Assembly: GCA_027482245.1 (NCBI GenBank)
Contig: JAIXWG010000029.1
Coordinates: 1-64,000 of the forward strand
DNA from: Acetobacteraceae bacterium
Lineage (GTDB): Bacteria; Pseudomonadota; Alphaproteobacteria; Acetobacterales; Acetobacteraceae
Length of the DNA: 64,000 nt
Direction of reading: 5' to 3'
The notes below the pieces were generated by a model, which was not told where the DNA came from, did not search any database, and saw nothing but the letters and a program-made list of their open reading frames with translations. Numbering within the stretch: position 1 is the stretch's first letter; each line of letters starts with the position of its first letter. The position numbers and the translations under genes were made by a program. Of the stretch, positions 33,765 through 56,001 are shown in pieces.

Positions 33765-34220
33765 ATGGCCAGCAACAACAACCAGGGCAATTCCAACCCC
33801 GGCAACTTCGCCAACGACCGTGAGAAGGCGGCCGAGGCCGGCCGCACCGGCGGCCAGCACCAGGGCCGCGAGAACAACCCTGGCAATTTCGCCAACGACC
33901 CGGAGAAGGCGGCGCGCGCCGGCCATGTCGGCGGCACGCACCAGGGCAAGGAGAACAACCCGGGCAACTTCGCCAATGACCGGGAGAAGGCGGCCGAGGC
34001 GGGGCGCATGGGCGGGCAGAGCCAGGGCAAGGAGAACAACCCCGGCAACTTCGCCAATGACCGCGAGAAGGCGGCCGAGGCCGGTCGCATGGGCGGCCAG
34101 CACAGCCAGGGCGGCGGTGGATCGCAGGGCAATTCCGGCAACTTCGCCCAGGACCGGGAGAAGGCCTCCGAAGCCGGCCGCAAGGGCGGGCAGAACAGCG
34201 GCGGCGGCAACCGCCGCTGA
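33765..34220 (+). CDS. KGG-repeat general stress protein (GsiB/ConE-like hydrophilin)
   Basis: The 151-residue, highly hydrophilic protein has five copies of a motif like NPGNFANDREKAAEAGRxGG, beginning at residues 11, 38, 65 and 92 (exact 27-residue spacing) and near 123. The Gly-Gly after a basic residue and the DREKA(A/S)EAG core define KGG stress proteins (con-10/GsiB family), which are disordered and linked to desiccation or general stress. The DNA is correspondingly an 81-bp tandem repeat from about 33795 to 34193. A GGGAGAA ribosome-binding site lies before ATG 33765, and a clear terminator follows. Confidence 0.88.
   Translation: MASNNNQGNSNPGNFANDREKAAEAGRTGGQHQGRENNPGNFANDPEKAARAGHVGGTHQGKENNPGNFANDREKAAEAGRMGGQSQGKENNPGNFANDREKAAEAGRMGGQHSQGGGGSQGNSGNFAQDREKASEAGRKGGQNSGGGNRR
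33795..34193. repeat. 81-bp coding tandem repeat inside the KGG gene
   Basis: Four units follow each other at exactly 81 bp and a fifth, diverged unit follows after a Gly/Ser-rich insertion. The units are near-identical over the NFANDREKAAEAGR codons. Such repeats can expand or contract by slippage, so copy number may vary between strains. Confidence 0.75.
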
Positions 34221-51365: not shown

Positions 51366-52421
51366 ATGAAGGCGCTTCGCCTTTCTGTGACGCGTGCCCT
51401 GGGCGGCGCCGCCCTGGCGGCATCGCTGGCGGCCCCGCTGGCCGCGCAGCAGCCCGCCGCGCCGGCCGCCGGTGGTGCTGCGACGCTCGACGCGATCCGC
51501 GCCCGCGGCACGCTGATCTGCGGCGTGAACACCGGCCTGGCCGGCTTCGCCCAGCCGGACAGCCAGGGCGTCTGGCGCGGCTTCGACGTGGACTACTGCC
51601 GCGCCGTCGCCGCCGCGCTGTGGAACGACCCGAGCAAGGTCCGCTACGTGCCGACCACGGCGCAGAACCGCTTCACGGCGCTGCAGTCCGGCGAAGTGGA
51701 CATGCTGGCCCGCAACACGACCTGGACGCTGTCCCGCGACACCTCGCTGGGCTTCGACTTCACCGGCATCAACTTCTATGACGGCCAGGGCTTCATGGTG
51801 AAGGCCTCCGCCGGCGTGCGGACGGCGCGGGACCTGAACGGCGCCACTATCTGCGTGCAGCCCGGCACCACCACCGAACAGAACCTGACCGACTGGGCGC
51901 GCGCCAACCGCATCCAGTTCACCCCCGTGGTGATCGAGCAGCTGAACGACGTCGTCGGCGCCTATGTCTCCGGCCGCTGCGACGCCTATACGACGGACGT
52001 CTCCGGCCTCGCCTCCACCCGGTCGGCCCAGCCGCGGCCGCAGGAACACCTGATCCTGCCGGACGTCATCAGCAAGGAACCGCTGGGCCCGGCCGTGCGC
52101 CATGGCGACCAGCGCTTCGCGGATTTGGTGCGCTGGATCCATTTCGGCCTGATCGGTGCCGAGGAATTGGGCATCACGGCCGCCAACGTGGCGCAGGCCG
52201 CGACGGGCGACCAGCGGCCGGAAGTCCAGCGCATGCTGGGCCGCACGGGTGACCTCGGCCGGATGCTGACGGTGGACAATGCCTGGCTGGTCAACGTGAT
52301 CCGCCATGTCGGCAACTACCAGGAGATCTTCGACCGCAACCTGGCGCCGATCGGCCTGCAGCGTGGCCCGAACGCGCTGTGGACCAATGGCGGCCTGCAG
52401 TACTCGCCGCCCTTCCGGTGA
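51366..52421 (+). CDS. aapJ: General amino-acid ABC transporter substrate-binding protein AapJ
   Basis: AapJ is the periplasmic receptor for a broad range of L-amino acids. The 351-residue protein has a signal peptide (MKALRLSVTRALGGAALAA) and family motifs ARGTLICGVNTGLAGFAQPD, 'GFDVDYCRAVAAALWNDPSK', 'ALQSGEVDMLARNTTWTLSR' and 'GRCDAYTTDVSGLASTR'. It heads aapJ-Q-M-P. A perfect 12-bp hairpin at 52431-52460, just beyond the stop, may lower downstream expression relative to the receptor. Confidence 0.95.
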   Translation: MKALRLSVTRALGGAALAASLAAPLAAQQPAAPAAGGAATLDAIRARGTLICGVNTGLAGFAQPDSQGVWRGFDVDYCRAVAAALWNDPSKVRYVPTTAQNRFTALQSGEVDMLARNTTWTLSRDTSLGFDFTGINFYDGQGFMVKASAGVRTARDLNGATICVQPGTTTEQNLTDWARANRIQFTPVVIEQLNDVVGAYVSGRCDAYTTDVSGLASTRSAQPRPQEHLILPDVISKEPLGPAVRHGDQRFADLVRWIHFGLIGAEELGITAANVAQAATGDQRPEVQRMLGRTGDLGRMLTVDNAWLVNVIRHVGNYQEIFDRNLAPIGLQRGPNALWTNGGLQYSPPFR

Positions 52422-52430
52422 GGTGAGGCA

Positions 52431-52460
52431 GGGGCCGCGGGCATCGGCGCCCGCGGCCCC
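52431..52460 (+). terminator. Intra-operon hairpin between aapJ and aapQ (attenuator)
   Basis: GGGGCCGCGGGC (52431-52442) pairs perfectly with GCCCGCGGCCCC (52449-52460) over a 6-nt loop, starting 9 bp after the aapJ stop. No T run follows, so read-through is expected. Such hairpins commonly stabilise binding-protein mRNA and reduce transcription of permease genes. Confidence 0.6.
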
Positions 52461-52592
52461 GCTCTTGCATGACCCCTGGCGCGTCGCGGTCCCGCAGGCC
52501 GCGCCGCCCCTGCGATACCCGTTCCGCCTTCGCCGTGCCTGACCGCCTGAAGCGGGGCCAACCCCGCCGGGCCAATCCACCAGGGAAGCCTC

Positions 52593-53798
52593 ATGTCCTC
52601 ATCCACCGCCGATCCGCGCCTGGCCTCGGCCGGCCCGCCGCGCCGCCCGATCCGTCTGTCCTGGTCGGATGAGCGCCTGCGCGCCATCGTCTGGCAGATC
52701 CTCGTCGTGGGCATCGTCGGCGCCATCGTCTGGTGGCTGTGGTCCAACACCGTGCACAACCTGGAAGTCCGCCGCATCGCGACGGGTTTCGGCTTCCTGC
52801 AGCGGGAGGCGGGGCTGCCGATCGGCGAATCGCTGATCGAGTACGAGCCGACGCACAGCTACCTGCGCGCGCTGACGGTCGGCGTGCTGAACACGCTGAA
52901 GGTCGCGGTGGTGGGCGTGATCCTGGCCACCATCCTCGGCACGCTGGTCGGCATCGCCCGGCTGTCGAAGAACTGGCTCGTCTCCAAGCTCGCCGGCTTT
53001 TATGTGGAGGTGATCCGCGACCTGCCGCTGCTGCTGCAGCTGCTGTTCTGGTACACGATCCTGCAGGGCCTGCCCGGGCCGCGCCAGGCGCTGAACCCGG
53101 TGGATGGCGTGTTCCTGTCCAACCGCGGCATGAAGCTGCCCTGGATCGAATGGCTGCCGGCGCATAACTGGGCGCTGCTGGCCATGGTCGTCGGCATCGT
53201 GGCCACCTGGGCCTATGCCCGCGCCATGCGCGCGAAGCAGTACGCCGACGGTCAGCCGCGCAAGATCTGGCCGGCGGGCCTGGCGCTGATCGTCGGCCTG
53301 CCGCTGGCGGTCTGGGCGGCGCATGGCGCGCCCTTCACGCCGGACATCCCCGCGCTGCGCGGCTTCAACTTCCGCGGCGGCGTCACCGTTAGCCCCGAAT
53401 ACTTCGCCCTGCTGCTGGGCCTGGTCACCTACACCGCCGGCTTCATCGCGGAGATCGTCCGCGCCGGCATCCTGGCGGTGAACCAGGGGCAGTGGGAAGC
53501 GGCGGAGGCACTCGGCATGCGGCGGGGCGAGATCCTGAAGCGGATCGTGCTGCCCCAGGCGCTGCGCGTGATCGTGCCGCCGATGACGTCTCAGTACCTG
53601 AACCTGACGAAGAACAGCTCCCTTGCCGTCGCGATCGGCTACCAGGACATCGTCAGCATCGCGAACACGACGCTGAACCAGACCGGCCAGGCGATCGAGG
53701 GCATCGCCATCATCATGCTGGTCTACCTGACGATCAGCCTGTCGATCAGCCTGTTCATGAACTGGTACAACGCGCGCATCGCGCTGGTGGAGCGCTGA
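52593..53798 (+). CDS. aapQ: General amino-acid ABC transporter permease AapQ
   Basis: This 401-residue HisM-type permease has an N-terminal helix (IVWQILVVGIVGAIVWWLW), a substantial extra loop typical of AapQ, and the EAA cytoplasmic loop 'EALGMRRGEILKRIVLPQAL' near residue 305. It ends 'FMNWYNARIALVER'. Start ATG 52593 follows GGGAAG. The last nine codons plus the stop are the first copy of a sequence repeated twice more downstream (98-bp tandem duplication, 53769-53994). Confidence 0.94.
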   Translation: MSSSTADPRLASAGPPRRPIRLSWSDERLRAIVWQILVVGIVGAIVWWLWSNTVHNLEVRRIATGFGFLQREAGLPIGESLIEYEPTHSYLRALTVGVLNTLKVAVVGVILATILGTLVGIARLSKNWLVSKLAGFYVEVIRDLPLLLQLLFWYTILQGLPGPRQALNPVDGVFLSNRGMKLPWIEWLPAHNWALLAMVVGIVATWAYARAMRAKQYADGQPRKIWPAGLALIVGLPLAVWAAHGAPFTPDIPALRGFNFRGGVTVSPEYFALLLGLVTYTAGFIAEIVRAGILAVNQGQWEAAEALGMRRGEILKRIVLPQALRVIVPPMTSQYLNLTKNSSLAVAIGYQDIVSIANTTLNQTGQAIEGIAIIMLVYLTISLSISLFMNWYNARIALVER

Positions 53799-53803
53799 GC
53801 CCC

Positions 53804-53896
53804 ATGAAGCCGACAGACATGAAGCGTTGCAGCGCGTTGTTGCTTTCCCCGTGCGCCTCGCGGCGCAACGCGCGCATCGCGCTGGTGGAGCGCTGA
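53804..53896 (+). CDS. Mini-ORF 1 between aapQ and aapM (30 residues)
   Basis: It starts at ATG 53804, 5 bp after the aapQ stop, and ends at TGA 53894-53896. The peptide starts MKPTDMKRCSALLLSPC and ends RRNARIALVER, so its last nine residues equal the end of AapQ. There is no independent strong ribosome-binding site, so it could be translated by reinitiation after aapQ. It may have no function as a peptide but could link aapQ and aapM translation. Confidence 0.4.
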   Translation: MKPTDMKRCSALLLSPCASRRNARIALVER

Positions 53897-53901
53897 GCCC
53901 C

Positions 53902-53994
53902 ATGAAGCCGACAGACACCAAGGGCCGCAGCGCGTTGTCCTTTTCCCCGTGCGCCTCGCGGCGCAACGCGCGCATCGCGCTGGTGGAGCGCTGA
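53902..53994 (+). CDS. Mini-ORF 2 between aapQ and aapM (30 residues)
   Basis: This is the duplicate of mini-ORF 1. ATG 53902 lies 5 bp after its stop, and its own TGA 53992-53994 is 4 bp before the aapM ATG. The peptide starts MKPTDTKGRSALSFSPC and ends RRNARIALVER. The reading frame is kept open although the middle differs from copy 1 at several codons, which argues mildly for either recent origin or selection on the frame. Confidence 0.4.
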   Translation: MKPTDTKGRSALSFSPCASRRNARIALVER

Positions 53995-53998
53995 GACG

Positions 53999-55144
53999 AT
54001 GAGCGACATCACCGCCAACACGACCGTCCCGCACCAGTCCGGCGCCGAGCGCCGGCAGCCGCCCGTCGCCACGACGGGGCTGGTGGCCTGGGCGCGGATG
54101 AACCTCTTCTCCTCCTGGATCAACACCGCCATCACCCTGGCGCTGGGCTACCTGGTGGTGCGCTGGACCATCGGCTTCATCGATTGGGCCTTCCTGAACG
54201 CCATCTGGTCCGTGCCCGTGGTGAACGGCCAGGCCCAGACCCAGGCCTGCCGCGAGATCAAGGGCGTGGGCGCCTGCTGGGCCGTGGTGACGGAAAAGCA
54301 CCGCTTCATCCTGTTCGGCACCTACCCGTATGAACAGCACTGGCGCCCGCTGCTGGTCTGCGTGCTGTTCGTCGGCCTCTACATCGTCTCCGCCATGCGC
54401 CGCTTCTGGAACTGGCGCCTGATCCCGATCTGGGTGGCGACGCTGACCGTGATCGGCATCCTGATGTGGGGCGGCATCTTCGGCCTGACCTATGTGCCGC
54501 AGGAACGCTGGGGCGGGCTGCCCATCACGCTGATCCTGTCCACTTTCGGCCTGGCCTTCGCCTTCCCGCTGGCGGTGCTGGTGGCGCTCGGCCGGCGGTC
54601 GAAGCTGCCGGCGATCAAGACGCTCTGCGTGCTCTACGTCGAACTCATCCGCGGCGTGCCGCTGATCAGCCTGCTGTTCATGGCCAGCGTGATGTTCCCG
54701 CTGTTCCTGCCGGAGGGCATGAACATCGACAAGCTGCTGCGCGCGCAGGTCGCCATCACGCTCTTCGCCGGCGCCTACCTGGCGGAAGTCGTGCGCGCGG
54801 GCCTGCAGACGCTGCCGCGGGGGCAGTATGAGGCGGCCGATGCGCTCGGCCTCTCCTACTGGCAGAAGACGGGCTTCATTATCCTGCCGCAGGCGCTGCG
54901 CCTCGTGATCCCGCCGCTGGTGAACACCTTCATCGGCTTCTTTAAGGACACGTCGCTGGTGCTGATCATCGGCATCTTCGACCTGCTGACGGCGGGCAAG
55001 ACATCGATCGTGGAGCCTGCCTGGCAGGGCTTCGGGATCGAGGTCTACGTCACCATCGGCCTCATCTACCTGGTCTTCTGCTTCGCCATGTCGAAGTACA
55101 GCCAGGATCTGGAACGCGAACTCAACCGGCACCGGCGGCGGTAG
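53999..55144 (+). CDS. aapM: General amino-acid ABC transporter permease AapM
   Basis: The 381-residue partner permease of AapQ has N-terminal helix region [19 protein letters not shown] and a periplasmic Cys-containing loop ([15 protein letters not shown]) typical of AapM. The core includes '[20 protein letters not shown]' and the EAA loop '[20 protein letters not shown]' then [13 protein letters not shown] 53999 is 4 bp after the stop of the second mini-ORF, so expression may rely on reinitiation from upstream frames. Confidence 0.94.
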
Positions 55145-55206
55145 CGGGCCTTGCGGCCCACGCCACGCCAACCAACGCCGGATGCCGGAAGACAGGGAAA
55201 GTGACC

Positions 55207-56001
<795 letters not shown>

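Follow-up and report, generated by a model that had tools for sequence, protein, structure and literature searches.

Mini-ORF bridges at the aapQ–aapM junction of Acetobacteraceae suggest a translational relay between two permease genes

The question raised by this locus is whether the translation of two permease genes, aapQ and aapM, can remain coupled when duplicated DNA separates them. Among gene pairs with tight spacing, subunits of one complex are over-represented, and a gap of about 20 nt nearly abolishes reinitiation in reporter work (both from PMC10666635); an insert of 60–330 nt should therefore uncouple aapQ and aapM, unless ribosomes translate the insert too. The window, i.e. the whole stretch of 64,000 nucleotides that was analysed, belongs to a genome of the Falsiroseomonas group of the Acetobacteraceae, and the best named AapQ matches are from F. 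algicola, R. ponticola and F. stagni. Besides the two permeases, both BPD_transp_1 proteins, the operon codes for a family-3 solute-binding protein and an ABC ATPase. The aap gene names, taken from the first-pass annotation, fit the polar-amino-acid class, but neither permease reached the cut-off of any NCBIfam equivalog model. In the paralogous operon of the same genome, the junction gap is 1 nt.

The aapQ-like gene, the upstream partner, extends from 52593 to 53798 and ends in NARIALVER-TGA, and the aapM-like gene, the downstream partner, extends from its ATG at 53999 to 55144, both on the forward strand like all the features between them. The last 32 bp of the aapQ end (53768–53799), carrying NARIALVER, the stop and an SD-like GGTGGAG, open a first 98-bp unit (53768–53865), which is followed by a second unit (53866–53963) with 92% identity to it. 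The tail segment recurs at 53866–53897 at the head of unit 2, and again at 53964–53995 as a partial third copy, which places a stop and an SD-like motif immediately 5′ of aapM; all three copies are identical. Mini-ORF 1 (53804–53896; 30 codons, MKPTDMKRCSALLLSPCASRRNARIALVER) starts 5 nt past the aapQ stop, and mini-ORF 2 (53902–53994; 30 codons, MKPTDTKGRSALSFSPCASRRNARIALVER) starts 5 nt past the stop of mini-ORF 1 and stops 4 nt ahead of the aapM ATG. The stop–start spacings along the chain are thus +5, +5 and +4 nt. The units differ at 8 of 98 positions (53820, 53821, 53825, 53827, 53828 and 53841–53843). Every number given by the first-pass annotation for the duplication, its differences, the two serial frames and their spacings was confirmed in the sequence.

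The array has a Tandem Repeats Finder score of 400, the second highest among the 14 rows for the window, and a chance origin is ruled out. It is the sole strong match to itself in its own 6.39-Mb genome (412 bits), the next best scoring 41 bits. A core motif, GGCGCRTTGTCC, was considered as a dispersed element and rejected; it occurs at 6 genomic places and its reversed control at 2, and by eye none of the 6 contexts resembles the unit. Elsewhere in the window, an 81-bp tandem array of 3.8 copies (33794–34103, score 412) perhaps encodes, as judged by eye, repeats of the GNFANDREKAAEAG/KGGQHQG type.

A comparison of unit number among relatives, proposed in the first-pass annotation, revealed that related genomes differ. 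A pure assembly artefact is unlikely as the source of the array, because the separately assembled F. algicola PeD5 carries two units that have substitutions of their own, while Roseomonas ponticola has one and F. stagni none; unit numbers are as given by the assemblies. Among 15 Falsiroseomonas genomes, two units are present in G000 and G001 and one in G007. Six genomes (G009, G013, G005, G006, G004 and G011) have tight junctions with gaps of 1 to 4 nt, G003 has its aapM start a few nucleotides past the aapQ stop, and G008, G014, G012, G002 and G010 carry other inserts at the junction. In the paralogous operon, G005 has a single unit and G010 has three, and each is closed by a copy of the paralogue's own, different tail. 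Unit numbers therefore range from 0 to 3.

The survey was extended to the family with junctions from named genomes (80 loci), from the 210 family genomes, out of 397, in which a match was found (30 loci and 100 fetched stretches) and from earlier loci. The 253 junction matches reduced to 173 distinct ones, of which six lacked an assigned aapM start (L082 was set by hand and five were excluded), leaving 168. Gap sizes are bimodal, as tallied with L082 set aside: of the 168, 41 junctions have gaps of 63–327 nt, five have 28–31 nt and the rest fall between −4 and 16 nt. The five intermediate junctions were kept out of the 41; on reading, four of them are bridged, and L269 has no ATG-started bridge. 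The long inserts are spread over 10 genus-level groups, a count that treats L080 as the same junction as L306 (g45) and places L085, L111 and L124 by organism name, L111 having later matched G407 of g45. The first-pass annotation had known of no such arrangement in aap operons; comparable inserts in these 10 groups and in one paralogous operon overturn that statement. A literature search, with most subscription journals outside its reach, found no account of an aapQ–aapM mini-ORF junction.

A relay was scored when ATG-started ORFs, the first beginning no more than 12 nt past the aapQ stop, reached, singly or serially, a point −8 to +6 nt from the aapM start. By this rule, 40 of the 41 long inserts relay. 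The one failure is L188, whose ATG lies at +14 and which was scored as a miss because the ATG window was fixed at 12 nt; if that ATG is allowed, its frame ends in an ATGA overlap, as determined by reading. A tail copy, judged by eye, is present in 32 inserts, and 28 of the 32 bridges end exactly at its stop. In the other four the tail stop is lost (L020) or the bridge is out of frame with the tail (L026, L067 and L232), and all four bridges instead overlap the aapM start as ATGA. Between related inserts, length shifts by whole codons, as in the 36-nt palindrome repeats of L017, L084, L106 and L128 and in the 30 nt by which L291 exceeds L093. A different type of insert was seen in L016, L019, L118, L193 and L313, which contain GC-rich palindromes and a TTGAGGG-type motif ahead of aapM; one ORF bridges each of them, ending at −4 or −1.

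As a null, the middles of the inserts were shuffled with random changes in length, while their start and final 30 nt were retained. This null expects 18.1 relays in 41 against the 40 observed (P about 4e-16 with phylogeny ignored); the inserts are related by descent, and phylogeny weakens this P value. When one insert was taken per genus-level group (10 groups), the product of the null probabilities was 0.015 with the largest and 0.0013 with the mean probabilities. The null probability is already 0.44 per insert on average, because long open frames arise easily at high G+C and because two frames out of three stop close to aapM, by the tail stop or by ATGA.

Neighbouring junctions of the same operon provide a strong contrast. 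Restricted to gaps of 55–400 nt, which excluded 2 of 82 aapJ–aapQ and 45 of 65 aapM–aapP junctions, relays were found at 2 of 80 aapJ–aapQ and 4 of 20 aapM–aapP junctions. Where an ATG lies no more than 12 nt past the stop, the relay is completed in 40 of 40 aapQ–aapM inserts against 6 of 25 control junctions. A prediction recorded beforehand was borne out by three of three fresh long inserts, two of which resemble known ones (L291 resembles L093, and L313 resembles L118). The fresh sample came from groups g16, g17 and g45, searched out of four genera named beforehand, with g16 yielding no new junction. Its 44 new loci included two without an aapM match, four without an assigned start and the three new long gaps, most of the others being already known; L188 recurred there as L309, an already-known miss. 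The idea of a translational relay, put forward in the first-pass annotation for the window alone, is thus strongly supported by the comparison of 40 of 41 inserts with the neighbouring junctions and by the fresh inserts.

These observations suggest how the locus may have been built and used. The two units would be in-place duplications of the aapQ end, which pushed aapQ and aapM 200 nt apart and brought their own bridge with them. In each unit, a start codon would be followed by an open spacer and then by a tail copy bearing its SD-like motif and stop, the next start lying close behind, so that the tail copy would recreate the layout of the tight aapQ–aapM junction. A ribosome finishing aapQ would re-initiate at mini-ORF 1, then at mini-ORF 2 and then at aapM. 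We infer that ribosomes use this chain and that selection has acted for termination–reinitiation coupling. Judged from comparison of the sequences, a relay of this kind probably keeps aapQ and aapM coupled, the peptides being by-products. The first-pass annotation proposed that the relay could tune AapM:AapQ stoichiometry; that unit number lowers AapM relative to AapQ stepwise is speculation.

The main rival to coupling is protection from polarity, in which the mini-ORFs are translated so that Rho spares the transcript, and fresh ribosomes start aapM at the SD-like motif of the tail with no hand-over. Each tail copy has an SD-like motif of its own, and aapM expression could therefore be accounted for by ordinary de novo initiation without a hand-over. 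Such protection accounts for the open frames and for the tail copy ahead of aapM, and a loose SD-like four-letter motif, for which no null was computed, lies ahead of the mini-ORF and of aapM in 41 of 41 inserts; inserts without a tail copy have, by eye, another G-rich, GAGG-type stretch in that position. However, it needs neither stops placed at −8 to +6 nt from aapM nor ATGA overlaps where the bridge is out of frame, and gaps of 57–319 nt at aapJ–aapQ are seldom bridged, though other signals may sit there. We regard protection from polarity as rather unlikely, and the bridging ORFs, including the four with ATGA overlaps, appear to fit the coupling reading best.

Neutral debris, left by tandem slippage in high-G+C DNA with frames open by chance, is already disfavoured and very unlikely. 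In its favour are the variable unit number, the high null probability per insert and the at least 25 changes that the inserted state has undergone on a tree of 172 short sequences, which is a weak tree; against it stand the excess of relays over the null, the strong contrast with neighbouring junctions and the outcome in the fresh inserts.

An RNA element, with REP-like hairpins between transporter genes setting mRNA stability and the tail copy serving as a spare ribosome-binding site, would be suggested by the perfect hairpin stems of at least 7 bp in 25 of 41 inserts, against a mean of 4.6 and a maximum of 9 in shuffles. The reverse complement of the common hairpin also begins with GTAG, the tag of one REP super-family (PMC3733652). 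Such an element leaves frame continuity unexplained, and the window itself fits it poorly: its longest perfect stem is 6 bp, and an Rfam search of 52400–55300 with E up to 1 gave no match. The GCGCGTTG/CAACGCGC pairing pointed out in the first-pass annotation does appear in the predicted fold; the structural role suggested for it is not supported in the window, as the folding of the segment is no stronger than that of its dinucleotide shuffles (z = +0.82). An RNA element is rated highly improbable.

Mobile insertion of REP sequences was also considered as a general origin. The GTAG-tagged 7-bp palindrome occurs in inserts of several genera and, by eye, CGTC adjoins it in some Falsiroseomonas inserts, a likeness to the GTAG and CGTC super-families described in PMC3733652, which reports CGTC repeats to be missing from Acetobacteraceae. 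In contrast to high-copy REPs, the insert palindromes are usually confined to a single locus in the genomes searched. The exact hairpin pattern, a search that misses degenerate copies, is present in 13 of 299 family genomes, and in seven of these the aapQ–aapM junction is, on reading, its sole site; the palindrome of G008 is likewise confined to that junction, while three genomes of group g97 have the hairpin at several places each. The Y1 transposase domain (PF01797) of RAYT proteins was found in 0 of 15 Falsiroseomonas genomes, and 5 of 14 control genomes were positive. Mobile REP insertion was therefore rejected for Falsiroseomonas, though it may apply in group g97. In G209, loci L131, L142, L150 and L151 show, near position 1500, the same hairpin between G-rich and C-rich arms, which by eye resemble a larger stem, perhaps that of a terminator.

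What is conserved in the inserts seems to be continuity of the frame. Between the two units of the window, the 63-nt spacer has undergone 2 synonymous and 6 nonsynonymous changes (pS 0.13, pN 0.13), and between the unit 1 spacers of G000 and G001 the counts are 0 and 5. Spacer pN is at least as high as pS in 6 of 10 pairs, substitution counts being small, and pS exceeds pN in the other four, which include all three pairs of the paralogous three-unit array (about two-fold). This indicates little amino-acid constraint on the spacer peptides, so that continuity, not the peptide, seems to be conserved. The mini-ORFs of relatives vary in length and sequence yet nearly always form a bridge, a pattern suggesting that selection favours uninterrupted translation and not the peptides. 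A function of the peptides themselves, e.g. as small permease partners, is barely credible: GFAGPRASYA-like and ARIALVER endings recur in several genera and the four pairs just mentioned would fit it, but the remaining six pairs do not, the palindrome core is read in differing frames (in 22 inserts, one frame 23 times and another 4 times), other inserts are dissimilar in sequence and species with zero units have the same operon. The tail behaves differently from the spacer; between the window units it differs at 0 of 32 positions against 8 of 66 (Fisher P 0.05), and in 8 of 41 inserts the tail copy equals the same gene's tail at 27 of 27 positions, an indication of duplication or conversion in place.

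Mycobacterial interspersed repetitive units (MIRUs) can occur as tandem copies between operon genes. MIRUs, reportedly described by Supply et al. in 1997, are short, mobile repeats at gene starts in many mycobacteria; close stop–start spacing couples the ORF inside them to the gene that follows, an arrangement thought to soften the effects of insertion (as summarised in PMC12548453). The aap inserts resemble them in having a small-ORF stop near the downstream start, 4 nt ahead of aapM in the window and −8 to +6 nt from it across the relaying inserts. Unlike MIRUs, the aap units lie at one junction in the genomes checked for copies, copy the local gene's own tail and vary in sequence between lineages. 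Being undispersed, they are not filed as MIRUs, though they would work like them. The window chain also resembles termination–reinitiation coupled pairs, in that two subunits of one complex are involved and each step falls within the −8 to +10 nt coupling range (PMC10666635 and PMC6728339); the aap inserts differ in that they set aapQ and aapM 63–327 nt apart and would couple them via one to three intermediate mini-ORFs. Rickettsia palindromic elements, mentioned in PMC3733652, provide another instance of palindromic DNA tolerated as translated sequence; those elements are described as lying in frame within genes, whereas the aap inserts form separate ORFs between genes.

A similar layout was found away from aap. 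In L133 (G281), at about 1400–1560 on the reverse strand, two GTAG palindromes are flanked on either side by a copy of the downstream gene's start, the two copies being alike at 46 of 47 nt. A 45-codon ORF begins there 1 nt past the stop of a 469-codon frame, and its own stop overlaps the start of a 235-codon frame as ATGA; we take these flanking frames to be purF-like and dehydrogenase-like, respectively. In L147 (G209), at a gene beginning MNIHEYQ, and in L129 (G111) and L141 (G298), at a gene beginning MRSLHIAATG, a palindrome and a copied gene start occur near 1500, with truncated-start mini-ORFs upstream; the copied start and palindrome end 15–18 nt short of the true start. These genes are presumably sucC-like and flagellar-like, respectively. 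Flanking repeats were thus present at 4 of 12 non-aap palindrome places checked, the other eight having no notable repeats, and by this comparison the aap junction may be one instance of a wider process. L133, an unrelated junction in another genus, shows the same relay layout built from the start of the downstream gene, which would extend a class of self-bridging boundary insertions beyond aap. As a tentative proposal, which we hold to be possible rather than probable, local duplications of gene ends or starts around a palindrome would push two operon genes apart yet rebuild a stop–start junction, frame continuity would be selected and unit number would become an evolvable dial on the permease-subunit ratio.

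Whether ribosomes can cross long gaps or depend on tight stop–start junctions has been argued from reporters. Evolution seems to have repeated the coupling test at one junction, leaving a translatable bridge in 40 of 41 gaps of at least 63 nt, and the aapQ–aapM junction of the Acetobacteraceae offers a natural system for measuring coupling across one, two and three reinitiation steps. It further suggests that part of the small ORFs in bacterial intergenic regions are bridges for ribosomes and not genes for peptides.
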